From: Zarea fungicola
Taxonomy: Eukaryota; Ascomycota; Sordariomycetes; Hypocreales; Cordycipitaceae
NCBI GenBank assembly: GCA_900169235.1
Contig: FWCC01000154.1
Location: 34,552 to 98,551 of the forward strand
Reading direction: 5' to 3'
Length of the DNA stretch: 64,000 bases
The notes beneath the pieces were generated by a model. It was not told the DNA's origin and made no database searches. It saw only the letters and a list, made by a program, of their open reading frames with translations. The translations under genes were made by a program, and so were the position numbers. Positions 3,182 to 64,000 of the stretch are shown here, piece by piece. Within the stretch, counting starts at the first letter, position 1, and each line of letters opens with the position of its first letter.

Positions 3182-3990
3182 TTTAGTCTGTCCCTGATGG
3201 TTGAATTGGTGGAATTGGGTCTGTTGCGGTCGACGGTGACTCTATCACGGTTTGGGGATATAGAGACTTAGGCAGCCACTTGCCGTGAGTAGTCTGAACT
3301 AATGAAGTTGAATAATTGAGTCTGAAAAGCTCCTCATCCATTAGAGATTTCTCCGGCTTCTATGCCTGTCATCTCTTTCCCAGAGATGAAAAATGGACTT
3401 TATAGGAGGTCGACGCAAAGATGAGTCCTGTTCTGAGACTTAAACTTGGTGAGTCGGCTCGCAACTCTAACCTCCCGGAACACGGTTGTGGCACCCGCTG
3501 TAAGGCAGATTCAAAGCCCTGGCGGGGGCGCTGAAGCCAAGCTTTTTTTAGTGCTTGTGGCGCTTTAACGCAGCGGTTTTAGGTGGCTTGACAGCTGAGG
3601 CTGCTGTTGCGCAAAGGCACTGACAGCTCGCAACCAACTCCCATTGAGCCTCAAACTGGAAACCAAGCGGGGATTGTTTTGTTGAGTAATGTGAAGAATA
3701 AAAAGATATATAACTGTATAAATATCAAAACTAATAGTATCCACATTTTTGTTTGTATTTCAGCAACAAAGTAAGTCGACCTGCCCGACAGATGATGCAT
3801 TACACTCGGCGGCGAAAACGGCAGGCGGTGAAGACGAAACCTGCGAAATCATTCCCCCGCCAAATATTCTGCCCATCCCCCACTTCAACATTGGGCATGT
3901 TCGCGCTTGACATTTTGATACAGCAGTATTTACGAAGCCAACACAGCATAGAGCAGACGGCAAGTCCGTCTATAAAGAAACTGGTTCAGG
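3182..3990. other. Intergenic, divergent promoter region
   Basis: Shared upstream region between the minus-strand Zn2Cys6 regulator and the plus-strand DRG1 gene. No open reading frame with family features was seen. It contains the G+C-rich stretch near 3470-3610 and an AT-rich stretch near 3680-3760, the latter probably close to the DRG1 transcription start. Confidence 0.6.
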
Positions 3991-5454
3991 ATGGTGAATA
4001 TTACGGACAAGATCAAGGAGTACGTGGCTGCTGTCGCCATGGGGCGTCGATATCGCGACTAACCAAAGTTTTAGGATTGAGGAGGAGATGAAGCGGACAC
4101 AAAGTACGTCAACTGCTTGGGTGCCCCGATTGCTCGGACATGCCAAGTACTTTCTGACTTGACTTTGCTTGCTAACACATTCCTATAGAAAATAAAGCCA
4201 CAGGTTCGTCAATAGTCGGGTCGGAAGTGAGTCGAGAGGTACTAACCAACAATGGACAGAATATCATTTGGGTCTATTAAAAGGGTAATTATGCGCCGTC
4301 AGTTGCTATTATCACTCTTTTTCGAAACTAACCAAATCACAGTAAGCTTGCTCGCCTACGAGCGCAATTGCTAGAGCCCGGTCCTGGCAGTGGCGGCGGC
4401 CCCGGCGCAGGCTTCGACGTGAGCAAGAGCGGCGACGCCCGCATCGCCCTCGTCGGCTTCCCCTCGGTCGGTAAATCGACCTTTTTATCCAAAGTCACAA
4501 AAACAAAGTCCGAAGCCGCCTCGTACGCCTTTACGACGCTGACGGCCATTCCCGGCGTGCTCGAGTACGGCGGCGCCGAGATTCAGCTGCTCGATTTGCC
4601 GGGAATCATCGAGGGCGCCTCGGAGGGCAAGGGCCGCGGTCGGCAAGTCATTTCGGCGGCCAAGACGAGTGACTTGATTCTCATGGTTCTGGATGCGACG
4701 AAGCGTGCGGAGCAGAGGGCTCTGCTCGAGGCGGAACTCGAAGCTGTAGGCATCCGCCTAAACCGCTCCCCACCGTATGTCAAACTCCTCTCCTCCTGCA
4801 ACCGAAATGCAGATTGCAAAGTATAGTTTTTACTAATACGTATATTCCTTCTTTTTTTTTAATTTCAGCAACATCTATCTCAAAGTCAAAATGGCCGGCG
4901 GTATGAAAATCACGTTTCAATCACCGCCCAAGAACCTCGACGAAAAGATGCTCTACAACATCCTCCGCGACTACAAGATCCTCAACTGCGAGGTCCTCGT
5001 GCGCGACGACGAGGCCACCGTCGACGACTTCATCGACGTCATCATGAAGGACCACCGCAAGTACATCAACTGCCTGTACGTGTACAACAAGATTGACTCG
5101 GTGTCGCTCGACTTTCTCGACTCGCTCGCGCGGGAGCCCAACACGGTCGTCATGAGCTGCGAGCTGGATCTCGGCGTGCAGGACGTCATTGACCGGTGCT
5201 GGAAGGAGCTGCGGCTGATGCGTATCTACACCAAGCGCAAGGGCATCGAGCCGAATTTCGGCGAGGCGCTGATTGTGCGGAGCAACAGCTCCATCGAGGA
5301 CGTGTGCAACAGCATCCACAGGAATATGAAGGACACCTTCAAGTATGCGCTAGTCTGGGGCGCGAGCGCGCGGCACGTACCGCAGCGCGTGGGGTTGGGC
5401 CACATGGTCTCGGATGAGGATGTGGTGTATATTGTCAGTGGATGGAAGGCGTAG
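3991..5454 (+). CDS. RBG1: Developmentally regulated GTP-binding protein 1 (DRG1/RBG1)
   Basis: Obg-family translational GTPase that associates with ribosomes. Six exons: 3991-4019, 4075-4103, 4189-4203 (a 15-base microexon), 4260-4284, 4343-4774 and 4869-5454; joined they give 371 residues, the usual DRG length. The N-terminus [19 protein letters not shown] is recovered only by splicing the short exons. GTPase motifs: GFPSVGKST (G1), [16 protein letters not shown] (G3, Obg glycine motif), NKID (G4). The C-terminal third is a TGS domain (from RIYTKRKG to YIVSGW) with the typical [14 protein letters not shown] ending. The short 5' exons cluster within 300 bp, a conserved trait of this gene in fungi by my recollection. 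The assignment is very secure. Confidence 0.97.
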
Positions 5455-12593: not shown

Positions 12594-14451
12594 ATGCCAG
12601 GCATCTTGACACCACCAACCTCAACCTCGAAGCACTCTGACGACCCCCACGAGAAGCCCGGCCGATACCAACCCAAGTCTAGAAATCAAGGTTTCTTTGC
12701 CAGAATGAAGGAGTCTTGGGCTTCGCAGTCGCAAAGGACGCGGTACTTTAAGACAATCGCCATTGTCTTTGCCATCATCTGCTTGTTTTACTGGCTGTCG
12801 CCCGCCGGCGTCCCTACTCAACCTTCTGGTTCGTTGACATGACAAGCCTGGACATGAGTCGCACTTGATGTGCTAACTGTGTACAGTATCCCAGAAAATA
12901 AACCCCGAACCCACTCGCCTTACCACCGGTGTCAACACCCCCGCCGCGAAACCTGTCGAGAAGCCCGTCGAAAAGCCCGTCGTCGACACCGACAAGGAAG
13001 TTGTCAAGGCACCCGCCTCCGACAGCAAAGCCTCCGACAGCAAAGCACCCGCTGCTGCCGCGGATGGCGCCGAACCCCATGACTCTAGTAATCCTGCCTA
13101 CACCTCCAAAAAGTGTACCAAGTCGTTTGCCAAGGACAAGCCCATTGTGCAATATGTCCTCATGATCGACGCTGGCAGCACTGGATCCCGTATCCACGTC
13201 TACAAGTTCAACAACTGCGGTCCCATGCCCGAGCTCGAGAGCGAAGAATTCAAGATGACCGAGAAGAGCGTTGGTGGCCTCAGTGCCTTCTCCGACCCCA
13301 TCGAGGCAGCCAAGAGTCTCGACCCCCTCATGAAGGTTGCCATGGACAATGTTCCCGAGAAGCTCAAGGGCTGCTCCCCCGTCGCCGTCAAGGCTACAGC
13401 TGGCCTCCGTCGTGTTGGCACGGAAAAGGCTGCTGCCATCCTCAAGCAAGTTCGCACCCATCTCGAAAATGACTACCCCTTCCCCGTTGTGTCCGACGAG
13501 AAAAACGGCGTTGCCATCATGGACGGCTCTGACGAGGGTGTCTATGCCTGGATCACCACCAACTATCTTCTCGGCAAGATTGGCACCGAGAAGAAGGGCG
13601 AGACGGCGGCCATTTTCGATCTTGGTGGCGGATCCACCCAGATTGTCTTTGAGCCCTCGTACAAGAGCAATGGCAATGCGGCTCCTGAGAAGCTTGCCGA
13701 CGGTGACCACAAGTACGAGCTAAACTACGGCGGCCACAAGTTTGAGCTGTACCAGCACTCTCACCTGGGATACGGCCTGATGGCTGCTCGCGAGGACGTC
13801 CACCAATCTCTGATCAACAAGACCCTCGAGACTAAGGGTACCGATAAGTCCTGGTTGTCCGAGTCCATTGTCAACCCTTGCATCTTGCCTGGTTTCACGC
13901 GCAAGGTCAACGTCACCATCCCCGGCGAGGCCGACAAGCACGAAGTTACTTTCAAAGGCCCCTCCGAGCCCTCGTCAGCGCTGTGCCGCAGCTTGACCGA
14001 GGATATTCTGCACAAGAACGCCGCTTGCAAGCAAGGGCCTTGCTCATTCAACGGCGTCCACCAGCCTGCGCTGGCCAAGACGTTTGCCAGGGAGGACATT
14101 TACATCTTTTCCTTCTTCTACGATCGCATGAAGCCTCTCGGCATGCCCGAGTCGTTTACCCTCCGCGAGATGCACGATCTCACACATGCCGTGTGCCAGG
14201 GCAAGGAGGGCTGGGGCGCGTTTGAGAATAGCGAAGAGGCCATGAAGGAGCTCAGCGATCGTCCCGAGTACTGCCTTGACCTCAACTTTATGTTGGCACT
14301 GCTCCACACCGGCTACGATATGCCGATTGATCGCGAGGTCAAGATTGCCAAGAAGATTGATGGCAATGAGCTGGGCTGGTGTCTGGGTGCCAGTCTGCCT
14401 CTTCTCGAGGCCAACTCTGGCTGGAAGTGCCAGGTTAAGCAGATTGCATAA
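12594..14451 (+). CDS. GDA1: Golgi guanosine/nucleoside diphosphatase
   Basis: GDA1/CD39 (apyrase) family enzyme hydrolysing GDP/UDP in the Golgi lumen so nucleotide-sugar antiport and glycosylation continue. Exons 12594-12828 and 12887-14451 (intron gttcgt...gtacag with a gctaac branch site); 599 residues. It is a type II membrane protein: a basic cytosolic tail, a single hydrophobic segment near residue 55 (TIAIVFAIICLFYWL), then a Lys/Pro/Ala-rich stem (about 85-165). Apyrase regions: DAGSTGSRIHVYKF (ACR1), KATAGLR (ACR2), GVYAWITTNYLLG with SDEG (ACR3), FDLGGGSTQI (ACR4). N-glycosylation sequons are present (INKT, KVNVT). The start is the first in-frame ATG after an upstream stop. Confidence 0.96.
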
Positions 14452-36850: not shown

Positions 36851-38724
36851 GCGTTCTGTTTGAAAGGGGCTTTCGACCTAAAGCTGAAAAGTATGTGCGG
36901 GCGCCGTTTCGGACATCTCGGCGATATTAAATTGAGTCTTACAACATTATGCATTGATTGTTTGAAGTGAGAAGCCGACCTACAACGTGTCAGTTTTCTT
37001 GTCGGCTAGCTTCTTGCGCATCTCTGATAGTTGGTACAAAAATCGGTCCGAAACCCACGCAGCAGATTCCTCCTTCTTCATGCCATCACATTAAGCAATG
37101 AACCACAATGAAAGAGTATGAAAGCAAAAATTACGCCCCCAATGGCCCCGAAGGACAATTGAGCATGAGTCGACTCCACGCTGTGCAATGCAGGCCTCTC
37201 AGACTAGAGTCTCGTATTCATGATCTCGAGACACTGGAACAAGGTAAGTATGAAGAAGAAAGGAGAAAAAGAAGAGGAAAAGGGCGGAAGCAGGACGCGA
37301 ATATATAGGGGCTCACATGGGGCCCGTGCGCCGGCTTCTGCCTGGGGCTGCAATTCCAGGCACCAGCTTCTTAGTGTTACATGTGGGGGCCGCCGCTTGT
37401 GGCGGCCTCAAGACAGCCTCAAGACACTAGCTAGAATAGATAAAGAAGAATCACTTTACTACTTCTTACTACATATATCAACAATAAGAAAGGCAATAAG
37501 AAAGGCAGTAATTATAAACCCTACTAGCCATGTTAAGAGTAGTATATTGCCAATTCTAATAATAGCTACATTAGACTTAACTTCTATTAAGTTCTTAAAA
37601 CTAACGTTACAATAAAAATAATTTAGTTAAGTTGCCGATAAAATATTTTTAAATAATCATAAGACCTTTTTTATATGTGGGGCTAAAACGACTCTTGTGG
37701 TGTAAAAAGTGACCAAGGGGAGTGGCCGATGTTTAAGACTAAAGCCAACTGCTGAGACGAATGCTTTAATTCCTTTTTGTATAGACTAAATTATATTTCT
37801 ACCGAGACGAGAATTGCCATTCTTTTCATGCAAAATTCTGTCCAAAATGCCTGCTTCTGGCATCGTATCCCGTTTCGCTGCGGTTCTCGCTATTGGCAGT
37901 GGCTCTTTAATAGGGCTATGAAATCCGCGGCGTACGATCTCCGGCGCTTTAAATCATGGACAGCAGAAATTCGCTAGCTTGATCCATAAAGTCAGACTTG
38001 CCAAGCCTCTCGTTAATGGCGGGGGGCTTATGGAATACCTACTTGGAATGAAAACAAGACAAAACATAACAATAAGTAGCGCCAAGAGCTGTACATCGCC
38101 TTAAAGCGAAACTGCACCCCTGTACTACATACCATTAGGATAGGTTTGTGGTCTAGAACAGATCTAATCTCATGTGAAATTAGAGTTAATGGCATTATAC
38201 CTTGAATCCATGCATTTTTAGTAATTCATTTTAGTCATGTGGATTTGCATCTCCGACAGCCACTACTCCATGCTGCGTGCCATAGGAAGCAACATTCCAT
38301 CAGCGAGCCAGATGAGCCTCAGGCTTGATCTTTTAATAGATCTTTTCTATGACGCCTTGCCCACTTCCTATAGGATTCCAACGTTCTTTAGTAATGCTTC
38401 ATCATACAAACCGGCCAAATCAGGTCTAAATAACAATTCCTATACAAGAGAGTTTCATTTTCCTAGCAAGATGCAGTCTACTTTCCTTCAGCTTTTTTGC
38501 AGAGGCAGTATTGTGTCGAATTGGCAATTCTACTTTACTGGTCCAACGGCAACAAGGCGACATGGCCGATGAAATTGGCCTGGGAAGCGGTGATGAGATG
38601 TAGAATATTTCTTGGAAGCGTTTTAAGATGGTAGGGACAAGGGGCAAGGGGCAAGTTGATTCGAAATTGGACATGTATGTATTTGTTTTTAGAAGCTTGT
38701 TCCTTTGGTGAGACTATGAGTATA
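36851..38724. other. Gene-free accessory DNA
   Basis: No intact gene. Contains a purine-rich tract at 37245-37300 and a TA-rich block described separately. Short frames lack features. Confidence 0.4.
37430..37690. repeat. AT-rich, RIP-like block
   Basis: Roughly 260 bp with a sharp rise in A+T and many TpA steps against flanks of ordinary composition. This is what repeat-induced point mutation leaves in an old repeat copy. No element family could be recognised. Confidence 0.4.
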
Positions 38725-38880
38725 ACCGCGGTTCGGTTCGGTTCGACTATAGAGGAGAGACTATTAGTGCGGTTAGAAGAAACGAAATAAACCGCCGGTC
38801 CGGTTTGATCAATTTTGACGGACCGTTCGGCGTTAAGGCGGTTTAACGTATTTTTCGGACCGGTTACGCTATTAGGAGCC
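38725..38880. repeat. Cluster of CGGTT/AACCG motifs, possible hAT end
   Basis: Dense cluster of direct and inverted CGGTT-type motifs: a triple tandem CGGTT at 38729-38744, then AACCGCCGGTCCGGTTT at 38790-38806, GGACCGTTCGGCG at 38820-38832 and TTCGGACCGGTTA at 38854-38866. Such subterminal motif clusters are typical of hAT transposon ends and their short non-autonomous derivatives. No terminal inverted repeats or 8-bp target duplication were identified. Confidence 0.35.
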
Positions 38881-39375
38881 CTTGCTGTGACAGTTTCGTT
38901 CTACTTTAGCACTTGGTCTATACAAAGATAGAGCATTCCAGGTAATAATACTTCATAATCTAAGGAAAGGTACATCTAATAAGCAGCGCTAGGTATTAGG
39001 CAATCGCGAGGGAGGTATGCAGAGAGAGTGGCAGGCATGGCCGAAGAATGTTTCGATAGAGACAATGGTGCGGATTATGGGGCCCATGTAATCAATAGTC
39101 ATAAACGGACCGACTTTATCTAAGCAGGTGCTTAACCTTAACACTTGTAAGGAGCGAAGGAACCCTTATTATACAGCTTTAGCCAGTTATATAATTGAAA
39201 GGGCTGAAGCTAATATAAACTATTCAACAGCTAGAGTTCAAGAGACACCTAGTAGTAAAATCAGTTCTCACTACCTAATCCTCCTCCGTGTACCTAATCT
39301 TTCCGAAAGCTTGAGCGATGTAATCCATCGAAGATCGAGACATAACCCTCGACAAGCCCGCTGAGTAGCATTGCC

Positions 39376-39630
39376 TCACCAATCAGCAGCACTGCCTTCA
39401 TTGGTACCGGAACGTTTCCAATCGGCGGCGCTGCCTTCATTGGTACCGGAACGTTTCCAGTCGGCGGCACTGCCTTCATTGGTACCAGAACGTTTCCAGT
39501 CGGCGGCGCTGCCTTCATTGGTACCGGAGCGCTTCACATCTTGAATTGCAGCGTTCGAGTTATAAGCAGGCGTTGCGACACCAGTGGCTGCCAGAACCAA
39601 AGCCGGAGTGATTAACTTCGAGAACAACAT
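39376..39630 (-). CDS. Secreted Kex2-processed repeat peptide precursor
   Basis: An 84-residue single-exon precursor. Residues 1 to about 22 form a signal peptide (basic residue near the start, hydrophobic core ALVLAATGVA, cleavage likely near TPA). A short spacer (YNSNAAIQDV) follows, then four tandem units KRSGTNEGSAADW, each beginning with the Lys-Arg site cut by the Golgi protease Kex2; the last core ends directly at the TGA stop. Processing would release four identical 11-residue peptides SGTNEGSAADW. The layout is that of alpha-pheromone precursors, dikaritin RiPP precursors and other fungal Kex2-processed repeat proteins. The core lacks the WC...CW pattern of known Sordariomycete alpha-pheromones and any Cys. 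No UstYa-type tailoring gene is visible nearby. Function unknown. Confidence 0.85.
   Translation of the reverse strand: MLFSKLITPALVLAATGVATPAYNSNAAIQDVKRSGTNEGSAADWKRSGTNEGSAADWKRSGTNEGSAADWKRSGTNEGSAADW
39379..39534 (-). repeat. Four tandem 39-bp units
   Basis: Four head-to-tail 39-bp copies, each encoding KRSGTNEGSAADW. The copies differ at about eight positions (Lys AAG/AAA, Arg CGC/CGT, Ser TCC/TCT and AGC/AGT, Ala GCC/GCT twice, Asp GAC/GAT) and every difference is synonymous. Confidence 0.95.
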
Positions 39631-40132
39631 TTTTTTATTCCTTCTAGAGAAAAGACTTGGAAATGAGAGTTGCGGGTAAGGATGAAGTTTCTACTAGATA
39701 GTACGATAGAATGAGAGTCAGGATTGAGGCCAAATCCGATATGAATGTAGTCTTTTAAGGGATTTGGAAAATCGACTTAGCCTAATCAAGGTGCATAACA
39801 ACAAATGCCGGCATGAGTCATGTCCCTGATATTCCGTCATTTCATCAGCACTGTGCCTCATTAATTAATGCTAATGCGCCAAATAGAATTACGTCTCTCC
39901 ACCCTCTGTTTATAAGAGCCAAATTAGTATCCTATGGTCTATCCCAAATAGGTAAATGCATTGTTTCAGTGTTTCTAATTCTCTTGAACAATCATCTATC
40001 TATACACAGCAGCCCCTTGGTAAGCATCATGACTCGAGCGGGCCTGAGGGGGAAGAGCCAAACTATTTCCTAGTGCTCACGACTATTACAGGATCAACAC
40101 GAACAAGATCCAGTCAATTGGAGCGTAGTATA
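39631..40132. other. Upstream region of the peptide precursor
   Basis: Probable promoter of the minus-strand repeat peptide gene, ending at the Tc1-family insertion. No gene seen. Confidence 0.45.
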
Positions 40133-40171
40133 CAGTGGGTGGCAATAAGTATTTGACCCCTTCGAGGTCAC
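40133..40171 (+). repeat. Left terminal inverted repeat
   Basis: Begins CAGTGGGTGGCAATAAGTAT; 38 of 39 positions match the reverse complement of the right end. Confidence 0.95.
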
Positions 40172-40265
40172 TTTTTGGCCCACACAGCCACAGAGGCTAC
40201 CTAGTCTAACCACTTTTGATGTATTGTTATGATGCTGCTTTTAGTCCTATATTTTCTACCTTTTC

Positions 40266-41324
40266 CTAGTACTTTGTATACCACCCATTTGCCTTGAAAA
40301 TTGCCTCTACTCGACGGTCCATTGACTCACAAAGGCTCTCGTGGACCTCCTGACGAATGGTATGCCAAGCGATTTTGGCTGCCACAACTAGCCGGGCATG
40401 AGTATCAACAGTATCAGGTGCTAGTTGAAGCTCTGGAAATTTGCGATATATCTCACGCTTCATAAGAGACCATAGGTTCTCAATTGGGTTCAGGTCTGGC
40501 GAGTATGGTGGCCATACCATAGTCTCTATACCCATCTCTTCTAGTAGATTCCTCACAACTAAGGCGGTATGTACAGCTGCGTTGTCATGCATGAAGATAT
40601 CGGTTGACCGAATAAGGTCAGGAAGAATCGTTGAGTATAGCTCATATATACCATCTGAATCCACGTTGCCATCAAGTGCTACGAGATTTGACCTCTCGTC
40701 ATACCCAAAGGCGGCCCAAAACATCTGGCGTACTGTGCCCTGTGGCCCTCGTACAGCTACTTGCTGCTGCTCTAGCTGTTCTTTTGGCCTCAAGAAGGAC
40801 CATTCCTTACTGGCCCCTTGACCTCTCCGGACCATACACTCATCACTCCACTTGACTCGGCGCCAGTCAAGATCCTTATATTGAGTCGCCCAGGCTAGCC
40901 TAGCAGCTGCTTGCTGGGAATTGAGTCTCTGACGGCGAAGCTGCTGCCACTTCCGAAGGCCCTCATAGTACAGGAAGCCTCGGAGGGCACGCTCTTTGAC
41001 AGCGTGGTCAACTGAGGCTAGAAGGTCCTGGTGTGTTATTGTTGGTCGGTCTGAAATTTGGTCACGAATATGTTGCTTTTGGTCGTCAGAGAGCTTCTGA
41101 GGGGCCCCAGATCTTGAGAGACTAGCTTGATCACGTCGTATTTGTTCCTTAGCTAGTGTATATTTGATAGTGCTGAGAGGTATTTCTGGGTGCTGTTTGT
41201 GTATCTTTTTGGCTCCCCAGCGATTGACTTGGCGTAGCTCACAAATCCGAGCCCTCATCGTCACACTCAATTCAGGCCCTCTTCGACCCCCCATTATTAT
41301 GTAGAAGTCAAAAAAAGGGGTCAT
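40266..41324 (-). CDS. Tc1-family transposase (DD34E)
   Basis: 352 residues from the ATG at 41324, or 342 from the ATG at 41294 (MGGRRGPELS), which looks the better start. N-terminal helix-turn-helix DNA-binding region (MRARICELRQVNRWGAKKIH; second HTH around DLLASVDHAVKERALRGF). Catalytic triad: Asp in KWSDECM, Asp in IFMHDNAAVH, and Glu in SPDLNPIENLW. Thirty-four residues separate the second Asp from the Glu, the DD34E signature of the Tc1 group. No stop or frameshift interrupts it, so the protein is potentially active in excision and reinsertion of its own element. Confidence 0.95.
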   Translation of the reverse strand: MTPFFDFYIIMGGRRGPELSVTMRARICELRQVNRWGAKKIHKQHPEIPLSTIKYTLAKEQIRRDQASLSRSGAPQKLSDDQKQHIRDQISDRPTITHQDLLASVDHAVKERALRGFLYYEGLRKWQQLRRQRLNSQQAAARLAWATQYKDLDWRRVKWSDECMVRRGQGASKEWSFLRPKEQLEQQQVAVRGPQGTVRQMFWAAFGYDERSNLVALDGNVDSDGIYELYSTILPDLIRSTDIFMHDNAAVHTALVVRNLLEEMGIETMVWPPYSPDLNPIENLWSLMKREIYRKFPELQLAPDTVDTHARLVVAAKIAWHTIRQEVHESLCESMDRRVEAIFKANGWYTKY

Positions 41325-41400
41325 TTTGGTACTAAAAGCAGCGTACTAGAATAACCTAGTGACTACCTAAATAGGAATTAGTATAAGTGGGCTAGAAGAA

Positions 41401-41439
41401 GTGACCTCGTAGGGGTCAAATACTTATTGCCACCCACTG
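41401..41439 (-). repeat. Right terminal inverted repeat
   Basis: Inverted partner of 40133-40171; one mismatch; followed by TA. Confidence 0.95.
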
Positions 41440-41743
41440 TAAGGCTCAATCCTTCATAATGATAATGCTGAGACAAACTGCCAATGACCTAATTTGGCAG
41501 TAGGTCTACCGCCAATGTGGGACTCCGTTCCCTGCTTCCCGCCAATTCCGTTCGTCGTTGACCGTCGCACCACGACATATAAACACTCACCAAGTACTCT
41601 TAAGAAACTCACATTAACAGCCATATTATCGCAGCAAAAATCTTTAAAGGAAATATAAAGCATTCCTAAAATAATACCCTAATCTTATTCTGGCTATATT
41701 TATGTAATAATTTGATATTAAAAATCAAGTAGTATTTTCAAAC

Positions 41744-46148: not shown

Positions 46149-47534
46149 CTACTCCAAACTCCACGTATCGGTCCAGTAGTCATATTTGCCAAAGCGACCG
46201 CCGCCTGGGGTCGAGAGTAGCCTGGATAAGCGTGATATGAGAAGGCTCCTCCATGGAATGTCAACGCCCACCTCCCTCGCCATCATGTTGCACCTAATAA
46301 CAAGTTGCCAGCAGTACGTCAAGTACTTGCGCAACTCCTCCCAGTTGTCTACATGCATCGGGTTGTGCGGCCGCAGTAGCCGACCCATCGGTTCATGGTC
46401 GACAAGATCGAGAATTTCGGTAATTATCTCCGTGGGGAGGCCCTTGTGCTGGAGAACAGCCCGTGTATATGATACAGCTGCATGGGATGGTCGCGGCTGG
46501 AGGCCGTACCACCTACACCGCGCCAGGAAGATGGGGAAGGGGATGGTGGCACTTGGAAGCCCATCCTTGGTGGCAAGCAAGGGTCGCTTGTCATAGCTGT
46601 ACCGTTCAATCGCACCGTCCTCGATGCCGAAGAAGTCGCGGTGTGGAAACTTGGCCACCTCAGACGTGTCTCCGCGTCCTGCGCATTCTCGCATCATGGT
46701 CTGATACAGGCGAGTGTTGCGATAGTCGCGAACGGTCGTCCTGCCACACCCAGTGTCCCACAACTCGGGAAAGCGGTAGCAAATGTTCAGTGCAAGGTAC
46801 GCGTCGAGCGCGGATACATATACTTCCTCCCAGCCCAGTCCCCTGTCGTAGTGGTATTGATAGTCATGCTGTGGCACTTCTTCCTGCGGTTTGGATAGCT
46901 GCCGCCAGTGCTGCATCCCATTATCCGGGTGGGCGCAGACGCGCAGAATGGGCTCCATCTGGTTATGCAAAATCAACGCCTTGACGACTTCCATGTTGAA
47001 GAAGGAGAGAGTCTCATCTCGGACGAACGACCGACGGTAGTCGTACACGTACTGTCGCAAAAATGCCGCCGTCTGTCGCTCCCTGAACGGTACGACACAG
47101 CCGCACTGAAGGTCAGCCACGTCGTGACGACAAGGCGTGGCATTTCTCTGTACCTCGATTGGCAGGTTGCGGCGGTAACGACTATATTTTCCACCGAATA
47201 AATCATCATAATTTCTTGAGCTATTGTAGATGCCCTCCTGAAGGATGCGCGCCCGCAGAATCGTTGGCGTGATCCGATGAATAGCCTGATCCGGGAGCAA
47301 GACCTCTTCCACGCCAGGAGGGTTGTAAGACTGTTCATACTTGTCGCGCTCACATCGAGTATGCTCCTGAATATTTTTGACAAATGTATCTAGAAAGTAT
47401 GCAAGGTCTTGGATTTGATTAGACTTATTGCGGACAAAGAAGTTGCACGGCTGGGGGCAAGGGTGGTGTGGAAAGGTCGGTCGCAGGTTCGACGTGAGCG
47501 CATCCCACGCAATGTTGTGAACTTGGTGTGCCAT
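46149..47534 (-). CDS. Hypothetical protein, 461 residues
   Basis: Uninterrupted single-exon frame from the ATG at 47534. No domain is recognised with confidence. It is hydrophilic, rich in Arg and Tyr, has no signal peptide or membrane segment, and carries a Cys cluster near the middle (TPCRHDVADLQCGCVVP). Close to the C-terminus LPTEIITEILDLVDHEPMGR resembles the first helix of an F-box, although F-boxes are usually N-terminal. The length without stops and the ordinary composition argue for a real, lineage-restricted gene. No introns, unlike most neighbours. Confidence 0.7.
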   Translation of the reverse strand: MAHQVHNIAWDALTSNLRPTFPHHPCPQPCNFFVRNKSNQIQDLAYFLDTFVKNIQEHTRCERDKYEQSYNPPGVEEVLLPDQAIHRITPTILRARILQEGIYNSSRNYDDLFGGKYSRYRRNLPIEVQRNATPCRHDVADLQCGCVVPFRERQTAAFLRQYVYDYRRSFVRDETLSFFNMEVVKALILHNQMEPILRVCAHPDNGMQHWRQLSKPQEEVPQHDYQYHYDRGLGWEEVYVSALDAYLALNICYRFPELWDTGCGRTTVRDYRNTRLYQTMMRECAGRGDTSEVAKFPHRDFFGIEDGAIERYSYDKRPLLATKDGLPSATIPFPIFLARCRWYGLQPRPSHAAVSYTRAVLQHKGLPTEIITEILDLVDHEPMGRLLRPHNPMHVDNWEELRKYLTYCWQLVIRCNMMAREVGVDIPWRSLLISRLSRLLSTPGGGRFGKYDYWTDTWSLE

Positions 47535-59557: not shown

Positions 59558-61080
59558 CCCAGACTTGACTAGTAGAATGATGAAAATACATTATCAAATG
59601 GATTATTGGATGCCTTGATACATTAGGTTGACTCTGTGGATATGGTGGCATGTTTTCGATGCTCAATCTTACGGCTCTCCTTTGACTTAAAGACGGGAAT
59701 TTAAACCCTGTACTATAACTAAAACTCCAGTCCTTAGATTTCTTTGCTGTTGGCTCACAGAATATTGAACAGTATCATAGTAGAGAAAGGAGAGGATGGT
59801 ACGAGGCAGCAGCATGTGTCGTTATCACGCGAGGTTTAACTCTGCCATTTCCTTGCAAGAGTATGGAAACGTGCGCTGGACAAATGGCCGACTGCATATC
59901 TCTGGTATCACTGCCTACTGACCGTGCAAACATTACCGTGGCCGGACAGTGTAGCAGGTTTGTATTTCAAGACTTCACGGAGGAAGTTGAGGTACTGTTA
60001 CGTTAAGACTAAGATAAATGGACGACAGATACTCTGATCTGTCGGTGGCTTCCTGACGCATCAACTGTAATAAGCATCAGTGACAGGTGTTGAAACAAGT
60101 TGTTAAAAATAGTATTGCACTGAATATTAATGTCACACTCTAGCATTTAGACAGAACGAGTCTAAACTATGAACTTTGACTAGGAGCTGAAACTAGAAAA
60201 GTTTTACGTGTTTGGATCATATAGATTAGTCTCCAGACAAGAAATTTGGCTTCACGTTTTTTCGGCCCAGGTTCATACTTGTTCTTGCCTGACCTCCAGT
60301 TAAAACACTCGCTTTGCGCATGACCTCCTAAATGCGTGGCCGCGGCCCTGTCCGCCAAGGATGCCAATGTCAACGAATGCCAAGCACATGTAGAGCTCAG
60401 ACTGGTAACTCTTCGCCAATGTCTCCGAGGTTCCGCCATCCTGTGTAACTTTGATGAGAAGCAGCTGCTGCCAGCCAGATTAAACGTCATAAGACCACAA
60501 GAAGAGCAAAACTTGCGATGATCCTGACCGGGCAGGCAGGGATGAAACTCAGAGCTGATCGCTAAACGGTTTCAGCCCCCACATGCATGGCACGGGCCGC
60601 TCGCTGTTGGTGGTGGTGTGCAGGAGTGCAATCGGCAAGTTTTTAGCTCACAACTTATCAGGAGCAAGCTGCCGGTTTACTATTATAATTATAAAGCACT
60701 CCATACTACGGACGGCAAAACAGAGCTCACAAACCATTGTAACTGGATGCCTTGCTCCGTACTTGGCCTAAGCAAACAGATTATGGACAGCATAAAATTA
60801 CCCTCGCCCTCTCTAAGGAGTCTCTCTAAGCTTGCTCGCTGGCTACCTGCTGTGGAGAATGGCATGCCAGCAACCGCGGCCTTATTGGCAGAATCACGGA
60901 GCTGAAATTTTGACATGCAGTACAACAGAGAGAAATCCACTTATACGGGCGCTCAAATGCGACATCCTGCCACATCGAAATTTGTATTCTTGTATCCGAG
61001 GTTTTAAACACGCCATCGGTGTCAGCGTAATAGTGACACAACATTATATGTAATTACGCATATATATATATAGTTAACAG
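59558..61080. other. Gene-free DNA
   Basis: About 1.5 kb between the reductase and the AT-rich zone. Short frames lack features. No gene seen. Confidence 0.45.
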
Positions 61081-62261
61081 TAATAAAGTAGTCTAAAATC
61101 ATAGTTATATTTAAGGGAGGTCTTTAACCTAGCCTTTATAACACTAGTAATTAAATAATAACTATGCTAATTATAATTAAGGGCTTAGTTCTACTAAATA
61201 TTATATATACTAAAGCGTAGTTATATAATATAAAAGCATTAACTACTTAGGCGCTTACTAAAGCGAATATTCTAAGCAATAAGAGGATTAAAGCCATTTA
61301 TAAGTATATATAACCTTAATGCCTCTTATAGCTAAATCCACAGCCAATATATAGCTAAAGAAGAGATTAAGTACTTAATTTATTGTGAATATAGAATATT
61401 AAAGCTATAATTATATTTATTTATAATAATATTTATAAGAATATATGCTTAAAGTGCTAAAAGAATAATTAGTAATTTATTAGCTATATTTAGCTAAAGG
61501 GGCTAGCTATAAATACTTATATAAACTATATATACTCCTCTTAAGCCTAGCACTACTTATTATAAGGTATAATATATCCTTATATATTAATTATATTTTT
61601 ACTAATATATTAATATTTTAGGAATATAATAACTAAAAAGCTCTATGCTAATAGAGCCCTTACTAAGTAGCATTATATAAGAGTAATAGTAAATAATTAT
61701 TATAGCTTTTACTAAGTGGGCTATAGTATAAAGCTAGTAGGCTAAATAATATAGACTATTATATATATTAAATATTAGTTTAGCGTAAAATCTAAGGCTA
61801 CCTATATATAAAAATAATTTTATATAAAAAATATAAACCTCTTCTTTTTATTCCTTTATATACTTAAGATAGATAAGTTCTATATAAGTAATAGCGCCCA
61901 CTATAGCGAACTCTTAAAGAATAATCCTAATTAGGAGAGTTGCCCTTATTATAGGGTATCTTTTATAATAAATAATACTTATATAAGCCAAGTTATAAAG
62001 GCTAAACCAACTAAACGCATAAATATACCTATATAGCGAATATAATAAATATTAAAATTTAAGATACCTAATAATAAAGAAATTCTTAATCTAACTAATA
62101 ATTAATCCCCTAAGTATATATATACTTCTACTTCTATCCTAGAGGATATAAATAGGGTCACATTTTAAAGCGCTCTTTTAGATAGTTTAAAAGCACAATA
62201 TATAAGCTTAATTAAAATAAGACAATATCTTAAATTAAAGAGTATATCTTTTTAATTAACG
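61081..62261. repeat. Extremely AT/TpA-rich, RIP-like DNA
   Basis: Nearly 1.2 kb almost free of G+C-rich stretches, full of TATA, CTAA and TTAT steps with the few G and C mostly in GCTA/TAGC contexts. Composition changes sharply at about 61050. This is the expected end state of repeat-induced point mutation of an old repeat. The original element is not recognisable. Confidence 0.65.
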
Positions 62262-64000
62262 TAGTTCACATACGAGCGGGCCACACGGGCGAGTGGGCCA
62301 CTTCGCGTTTTTTTTTTAATTGAACACCTTCTAACCTTAATAACTTAATAATAGAAAATGGGTTCTACATTAAATAAAGCAAATGTTCTCTTAGCTGTTG
62401 AAGCTTTAAAAAAAGACCTGAAATTAAGCATTTAAGGCGCTGCTTGAATCTATAACGTGCCCTGAATAACACTTGAGCGTCGTCGACGAAATATACCAAG
62501 CTAAGCCAATATAAGCCTGAACAGTTGGAAATTAAAAAAAGAAGAGGAGGATCTAGTTATTTAATATATCCTTGATTTAGATTCTTGTTCCTAGCCGCCT
62601 TGCCTGTGTGATATAGAAGTTATAGTGAATTGCTTATTAGAGCTATGACATGGCATTCTAGTTGGAAGGAACTGGGTTACGAGCTTCATTAGACGACACC
62701 TAGAAGTTATTATGTGTTTATTGCATTAGATTGACTATTAAAGAGCCTAATGTAAAGATCTAAAGATATTTGAAGGCTAGTTCTAGCTTATAGAGAATAT
62801 AATTGCAAAATATAATATATAAGACGTGAATATCTATAACTTTGATAAGACTAGCTTTATAATGGGCGTAATAAGCTTGGAAATAGTGGTTATAGGATCA
62901 GAAAAGCGTTAAAAAGGTCGAAAAATATAACTAGGAAATTAGACATAGATGACAGTTATCTAGTGCATTAGTGCGACTAGTGGTATTATCCCGCTATATA
63001 TCATTGTTGCCGCCAAAACCCACCTCTTATCTTGGTATGAAAATAGCCTATTACCTTACACCTAGGCTATTTCTATATTAGAAAATGGTTAAATGATAAA
63101 TAAAAAGGGCTTAGATTAGCTAAAACATTTTAATAATAACATAAAACTGCGAAATTCTAGCTACTATTGCCTCTTAATCCTTAATGGACATAAAAGCCAC
63201 TAGTTAGTGGAATTTGAGTTATATTGCAAGGTAAACTCTATTATTATATTATGCATGCCTGCTCATTTATTACATATGCTTTAGCCATTAGATGTCGCTT
63301 GTTTTCGGCCATTAAAACGGGCATATAGTTAAGCTATTGGTGATCTAATGCAAGCCCACGTAACACACATTACTAAGGAGGAATTTCTACCTGCATTTTA
63401 TAGTGTATATAATGCTACTATAATAAAAAAAAATGCCCTTGTAGGTTTCCGCGGTGCTGGACTTTGGCCTTTTAATCTAAGTCATGTTATTTTACAATTG
63501 GATGTAATGTTATAGACGCCTTCGCCTCTAGGGACCTCTGATGGACTGGCCCTTCCCTGGCTTCTGCGAACGCCTAACAACCTAATGGAGGCTTTATCTT
63601 ATATAGAATATATTGAGAAGAGGATAAGAAGCCATTAGAGCAGCTCGCTAGTAGAAATTATTGAGAGTTTAATGTAAATGTTAAAGTGCATAATAAAAGC
63701 TCTGTGATAGATGGTCCTTTTGTAAGACTGAGTTAAGCACCTAGAGGCGGCAAATGAACGACTTTCCTGGCGTTAATGCGTTAAAAAAAAGCGTTTGTAG
63801 ACTGGAGGATCTCTTACTCTAGAAAATGGAAAAAATTTAGCTACTTAATCGTAGGTTGAGGCTGGGAAAAAACGCGCTAAAACTGAGGGTTCTGGTCAGC
63901 TAAAACGCGATGAATTACGCCGCCGGCGATGTGGTAATTGTGGCGAAATTGGCCATAATTCTAGAACATGTGATAATGAAGTAGAAATCACTTCTTTAGA
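62262..64000 (+). mobile_element. RIP-damaged pogo/Fot1-family transposon, truncated by window end
   Basis: A G+C-rich terminal-repeat-like segment at 62264-62310 follows a TA at 62262-62263. The transposase frame starts near 62358 and is full of stops. Still legible: EALKKDLKLSI with IYNVP (helix-turn-helix), EEEDLV and YILDLDS (CENP-B type DNA-binding region), YNFDKTSFIMG (first catalytic Asp), LNGHKSH where the family has LDGHxSH, PLDVACFRPLKRAYS, VGFRGAGLWPFNL, and a C-terminal zinc knuckle CGNCGEIGHNSRTC (C-x2-C-x4-H-x4-C). Many stops fall where CGA or CAA/CAG codons are expected, as RIP would produce. The right end lies beyond 64000. Confidence 0.85.

Follow-up and report, generated by a model that had tools for sequence, protein, structure and literature searches.

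A mushroom-type AADW peptide core on an unrelated leader in a predicted Kex2-processed repeat precursor of the mushroom parasite Zarea fungicola

Introduction

What is the peptide that a short open reading frame of Zarea fungicola encodes four times over, and what would an ascomycete use it for? The question arises from the window, by which we mean the whole 64,000-nucleotide stretch of DNA that was analysed. A reading made earlier from the letters alone (the sequence-only reading) had described a Kex2-processed repeat precursor with a novel-looking core, and had offered a new kind of pheromone, an effector or an orphan RiPP as its possible nature. Zarea fungicola (Cordycipitaceae, Hypocreales, Ascomycota) we take to be the former Lecanicillium (Verticillium) fungicola, the dry bubble parasite of mushrooms. 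Agaricus bisporus is its main crop host. Peptides of the KEP class (KEX2-processed repeat proteins) are widespread, and the class includes mushroom peptides that end in AADW. Notable here would be such a core in an ascomycete parasite of mushrooms, and its occurrence across phyla.

Results

A single-copy precursor with four identical cores

The gene is an intronless open reading frame on the minus strand, running from position 39630 down to 39376 (84 codons plus TGA); the sequence-only reading had these bounds exactly and left the strand unstated. Translation gives MLFSKLITPALVLAATGVATPAYNSNAAIQDV, then four times KRSGTNEGSAADW, then the TGA stop. Each unit is the 11-residue core SGTNEGSAADW preceded by KR, and the fourth unit abuts the stop. 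The four identical cores, set apart by KR dibasic sites, are those of a KEP, and the translation confirms the Kex2-type repeat precursor of the earlier description. The features are as follows.

39376..39630, minus strand: KEP precursor open reading frame, 84 aa plus TGA, single copy by DNA and protein search
39535..39630, minus strand: leader of 32 codons, a hydrophobic N-terminus and a spacer ending IQDV (translation and hydropathy)
39496..39534, minus strand: unit 1, KRSGTNEGSAADW
39457..39495, minus strand: unit 2, KRSGTNEGSAADW
39418..39456, minus strand: unit 3, KRSGTNEGSAADW
39379..39417, minus strand: unit 4, KRSGTNEGSAADW, immediately ahead of the stop codon

Hydropathy of the leader peaks at residues 6-19 (9-residue means of 1.58-2.38 for starts at residues 6-11), as would suit a signal peptide, probably of about residues 1-19 or 1-22. 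The core has a pI of 4.05, and linear SGTNEGSAADW a calculated [M+H]+ of 1094.44. DNA and protein searches found one copy of the gene in the 43.1 Mb genome, the precursor retrieving itself alone in a protein search of its own genome (E <= 10). The pattern AADWK[R/K], used to look for paralogues, matched six genome sites, three in the SGTNEGSAADW array and three in non-array contexts. A six-frame regular-expression scan of the window gave no second open reading frame with exactly identical cores across a dibasic site.

The array is also a minisatellite: Tandem Repeats Finder places it at 39379-39535 (period 39, 4.0 copies, score 251) as the top tandem repeat of the window, the remaining eight of nine rows scoring 50-64. 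A chance open reading frame over such a repeat is one form in which the locus could be an artefact. The differences among the copies argue against it. Seven of the 39 unit positions vary, and all seven are third-position synonymous transitions, as the sequence-only reading had claimed in calling every difference synonymous. If the unit mutated neutrally, and with sites taken as independent, such a pattern would arise with a probability of roughly 3e-5 to 3e-4, which supports its further claim of selection on the peptide. GC3 is uninformative (0.52 in the repeats, 0.50 in the leader, 0.47-0.81 in ten other window open reading frames). We consider it very probable that this is a real Kex2-type precursor with selection on its peptide.

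The core is that of mushroom AADW peptides

A first protein search, of 5.8 billion proteins at E <= 10, returned two of 944 scored candidates, P0001 of Lentinula aff. lateritia and the JGI protein P0002. A second search, with the tandem cores as query, scored just those candidates that shared most words with it and returned three of 7992 at E <= 10, namely P0123 of L. edodes, P0002 and P0001. SGTNEGSAADW is identical at 11/11 residues to units of P0001 and P0123. Each of these proteins also holds one SGTSEGSAADW unit, so that the Lentinula units themselves vary at residue 4. P0002, from a contig of 1.0 kb, has the core SGTGDSSAADW and a leader similar to those of P0001 and P0123. The pattern SGTxxxSAADW of Agaricomycete AADW peptides is present in the window gene, and the predicted core is common to it and to Lentinula mushrooms.

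Peptides of this group have been detected by mass spectrometry. The shiitake KEP 2599 holds seven copies of SGTGEASAADW, which has the same AADW end, differs from the window core at 2/11 residues and was found unmodified in fruiting bodies (PMC9769878). In Pleurotus fruiting bodies MSGVAADW, SGVAADW and LSGVAADW were detected; the corresponding KEPs 1091723 and 1439342, with (M/L)SGVAADW, share the AADW end but are shorter, and their precursors carry Ste13 dipeptides whereas the window precursor has none (PMC9769878). Vogt et al. 2022, the authors of that study, remark on the common AADW end of the shiitake and Pleurotus peptides, and list homologues in Auriculariales sp., Gymnopus luxurians, G. 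confluens and Rhodocollybia butyracea (PMC9769878). An XSDW repeat motif noted earlier in Basidiomycota by Le Marquer et al. 2019 (PMC6339444) is possibly a relative. As far as the account in PMC9769878 goes, no function was found for the KEP peptides it studied: C. cinerea knock-outs of six KEPs, none described as AADW, had no phenotype, and the synthetic KEP peptides tested were without antibacterial activity.

Given identical Lentinula units and a published mushroom AADW group, the novelty at first ascribed to the core is not supported, and the core is no orphan. Judged by its residues, SGTNEGSAADW belongs to a described mushroom peptide group without known function, although a text search found the exact string in none of the papers covered. 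The protein searches returned no ascomycete protein with the core, though the database holds many from Cordycipitaceae, and no Zarea fungicola protein with SGTNEGSAADW, though the species is represented there. Absence from other ascomycetes is nevertheless weak evidence, because the published Gymnopus, Rhodocollybia and Auriculariales homologues were also missing from the returns; the peptide may therefore be more widely spread among ascomycetes. In public contigs the pattern AADWKRSGT matched two viral and ten bacterial records once each; with a single match per record, these were rejected as tandem arrays and are taken as chance.

The leader is not that of the mushroom genes

The Lentinula KEPs P0123 (F5051DRAFT_437315) and P0001 (F5876DRAFT_73269) resemble the window gene in core, in KR between units and in layout. 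Outside the core the likeness ends. They are basidiomycete genes with a common leader, MRANF...AAPIE, which is absent from the window gene; they have ER before the first unit, where the window gene has KR; and they hold three complete units against its four, P0123 beginning a fourth unit before the predicted protein leaves the pattern. In comparisons scored against shuffles, the leader of the window gene does not resemble any of the three mushroom-type leaders (z of -1.5, -1.2 and 1.2), whereas those of P0001, P0123 and P0002 are clearly alike among themselves (z of 8.4-14.8). Common gene ancestry with the Agaricomycete AADW group is thus not seen beyond the core, and a plain recent transfer of the whole gene does not account for a leader so unrelated. 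What is unexpected is the apparent location of a mushroom core in an ascomycete, behind such a leader.

The gene lies in repeat-bearing DNA of the parasite

A mushroom parasite may be sequenced along with DNA of its host, so that the second form of artefact would be mushroom contamination of the assembly. The contig speaks for the parasite. An open reading frame for the guanosine diphosphatase GDA1 (12877-14448), about 25 kb from the precursor gene, is of Cordycipitaceae type: over 429 aa, or 82% of the query, it has 97% identity to a protein of Zarea fungicola. The next named matches, from Aphanocladium, Beauveria, Akanthomyces and Cordyceps, reach 76-79%, and one further protein 83%. The immediate surroundings of the gene comprise three elements.

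38690..38882: downstream flank stretch with diverged recurrences on contigs C86 (73% identity), C455 (73%) and C103 (87%)
39883..40130: upstream flank stretch, recurring on contig C41 at 76% and 91% identity in two segments
40131..41441, minus strand: Tc1/mariner-type DNA transposon, upstream neighbour of the precursor gene and not part of the precursor

Both flanks thus hold stretches that recur on other contigs at 73-91% identity (query 2691-2883 downstream; query 3884-4050 at 76% and 4063-4131 at 91% upstream), which is one argument against a chimeric insert at this locus. The downstream stretch, in which CGGTT/CCGGT motifs are present, is probably a transposon remnant. The transposon starts 500 bp upstream of the precursor gene and is bounded by inverted arms of 46 nt that are 96% complementary (40131-40176 and 41396-41441), with TACAGTGGG at the outer ends; its transposase open reading frame (40266-41324, minus strand) is open over 352 aa and matches Pfam DDE_3 (1.6e-16) and HTH_Tnp_Tc3_2.

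The non-mushroom leader and the wholly synonymous variation also count against an artefact. Contamination on the mushroom side is opposed by the fact that P0001 and P0123 have similar leaders and come from two Lentinula records, whose longest contigs measure 113 and 195 kb. An artefact, of either form, is largely refuted and hardly credible. The precursor gene sits in the parasite's own repeat-bearing DNA, with a mushroom core on a different leader.

Pfam, run on a selection of window open reading frames (20/83), also identified a HET gene. A 461-codon open frame at 46152-47534 (minus strand) had no Pfam match. In the last 3 kb of the window (61001-64000), where contig C414 ends too, G+C falls to 24-37%.

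Pheromone and RiPP readings

The genome encodes a candidate for the processing protease, an 871-aa Kex2 open reading frame on contig C183 with Peptidase_S8 and P_proprotein (P-domain) matches. A Ste2 gene is present as well, its two open stretches together covering positions 1-280 of the profile. The peptide could be the fungus's own extracellular ligand, alpha-pheromone-like for Ste2 or used in hyphal communication, in an old Dikarya-wide family whose deep conservation would explain the mushroom match. Sordariomycete alpha-pheromones carry the motif WC...G[QE]..C(W). Ascomycete alpha-pheromone precursors (PMC6339444) have, like the window gene, a leader, Kex2-separated repeats and a C-terminal Trp, a layout that speaks for a self-signal, but they carry a WC...CW core and XA/XP Ste13 repeats, whereas in the window gene there is no Cys and SGT follows KR directly. 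A canonical alpha-pheromone identity of the core was rejected for lack of Cys and WC...CW, in agreement with the sequence-only reading.

The genome was scanned, without a positive control, for the canonical motif with a set of four DNA patterns that nest or overlap; they gave 0, 0, 2 and 12 matches against 0, 0, 2 and 4 for reversed patterns. The 14 match contexts were read by eye (12 of them within 60 residues either side), and none was a repeat precursor. That no canonical alpha-pheromone was found leaves room for a self-signal, although the patterns without positive control make this a soft argument. Neither the genome search for MATalpha_HMGbox nor its control produced a match, so that this absence carries no weight. 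The homologues reported in Agaricales and Auriculariales sp. mean that the peptide can be old (PMC9769878). Against a self-signal, identity at 11/11 residues to Lentinula units that themselves vary at residue 4 ill fits slow descent through Dikarya; no ascomycete was among the protein-search returns, a weak point since the search missed published mushroom homologues; and PMC8000694 describes L. fungicola as asexual. We regard a self-signal as rather unlikely.

The precursors of dikaritins (ustiloxin, phomopsin, epichloecyclin) are also Kex2-processed repeat precursors of ascomycetes, and the core might be cyclised or modified by UstYa enzymes encoded elsewhere. It contains Trp, and a six-frame search that went beyond the window, as had been advised, found the genome rich in UstYa/DUF3328, with 55 stretches that match, some of which are exons of a single gene. 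A dikaritin cluster would have UstYa/DUF3328 nearby, and none of the 55 lies on the 98.5 kb contig C414; the absence of UstYa from the window, claimed earlier, thereby extends to the whole contig. Only 22% of KEPs have a UstYa partner, which where present averages 3.09 genes from the KEP gene, according to PMC7329392. The shiitake relative, moreover, was detected unmodified (PMC9769878). A dikaritin-type product is at best a slim prospect. Several UstYa matches on contigs C439, C230, C290 and C163 mark candidate dikaritin clusters.

Contact with mushroom groups that carry AADW peptides

L. fungicola is reported to parasitise cultivated Pleurotus ostreatus and Agaricus species (PMC8000694), and Marasmiellus ramealis is one of the sources of its wild isolates (PMC7426358). 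This mushroom, now named Collybiopsis ramealis, belongs to the Omphalotaceae; the peptide-bearing Gymnopus luxurians is now also placed in Collybiopsis, and Lentinula too belongs to the Omphalotaceae. Since the hosts include Pleurotus ostreatus and Marasmiellus ramealis, the contact needed for mimicry or transfer exists for L. fungicola.

Discussion

The role that we think most likely for SGTNEGSAADW is imitation of a fruiting-body peptide of the host mushroom, to which we give a probability of roughly 0.52. Among the options of the sequence-only reading, the match of the core to mushroom peptides in a mushroom parasite thus favours the effector and disfavours both the new pheromone and the orphan RiPP.

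We propose that the leader would direct secretion of the precursor, that Kex2 would cut after each KR and a Kex1-type carboxypeptidase trim the ends, and that each precursor would yield SGTNEGSAADW as a linear, acidic peptide in as many as four copies. A release of this sort has likewise been presumed for shiitake SGTGEASAADW, which was detected in its mature form (PMC9769878). A linear product is expected because the contig lacks UstYa and the shiitake peptide was found unmodified. Once released into a mushroom under infection, the peptide would take the place of the native AADW peptide and engage or flood its receiver, so disturbing host signalling or development. We infer secretion, processing, expression, host target and effect alike; the host target is assumed because the mushroom peptide has no known function.

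A structural role offers another account, in which the repeats would coat the hyphae like Ustilago Rep1 and the likeness to mushroom peptides would be camouflage or otherwise non-signalling. KEPs do include Rep1, whose peptides are described as forming amyloid-like fibrils (PMC9769878). The core, however, is short and acidic, and exact identity to a mushroom peptide would not be needed for a structural role. We consider such a role very improbable.

Imitation of the host peptide also has to accommodate the origin of the gene. The core probably arose first in mushrooms and then reached the Zarea fungicola gene in one of two ways: a transferred repeat array may have become fused to a native leader, or convergent evolution, under selection to match the mushroom peptide, may have produced the core. 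We hold the chances to be even that a mushroom parasite exports, on a leader of its own, a peptide that matches a mushroom one residue for residue, as cross-phylum mimicry by one or other of these routes. We are not aware of another such case in which one fungus mimics a peptide of another, and literature searches found none among the matches listed.

Retention of an identical copy by the parasite, with changes at synonymous sites alone, suggests a peptide of importance to the host. The parasite copy may offer a direct way into the function of the mushroom AADW peptide. Given the undifferentiated masses of host tissue that form in dry bubble disease (PMC6509529), a peptide acting on fruiting-body development would be a concrete lead.
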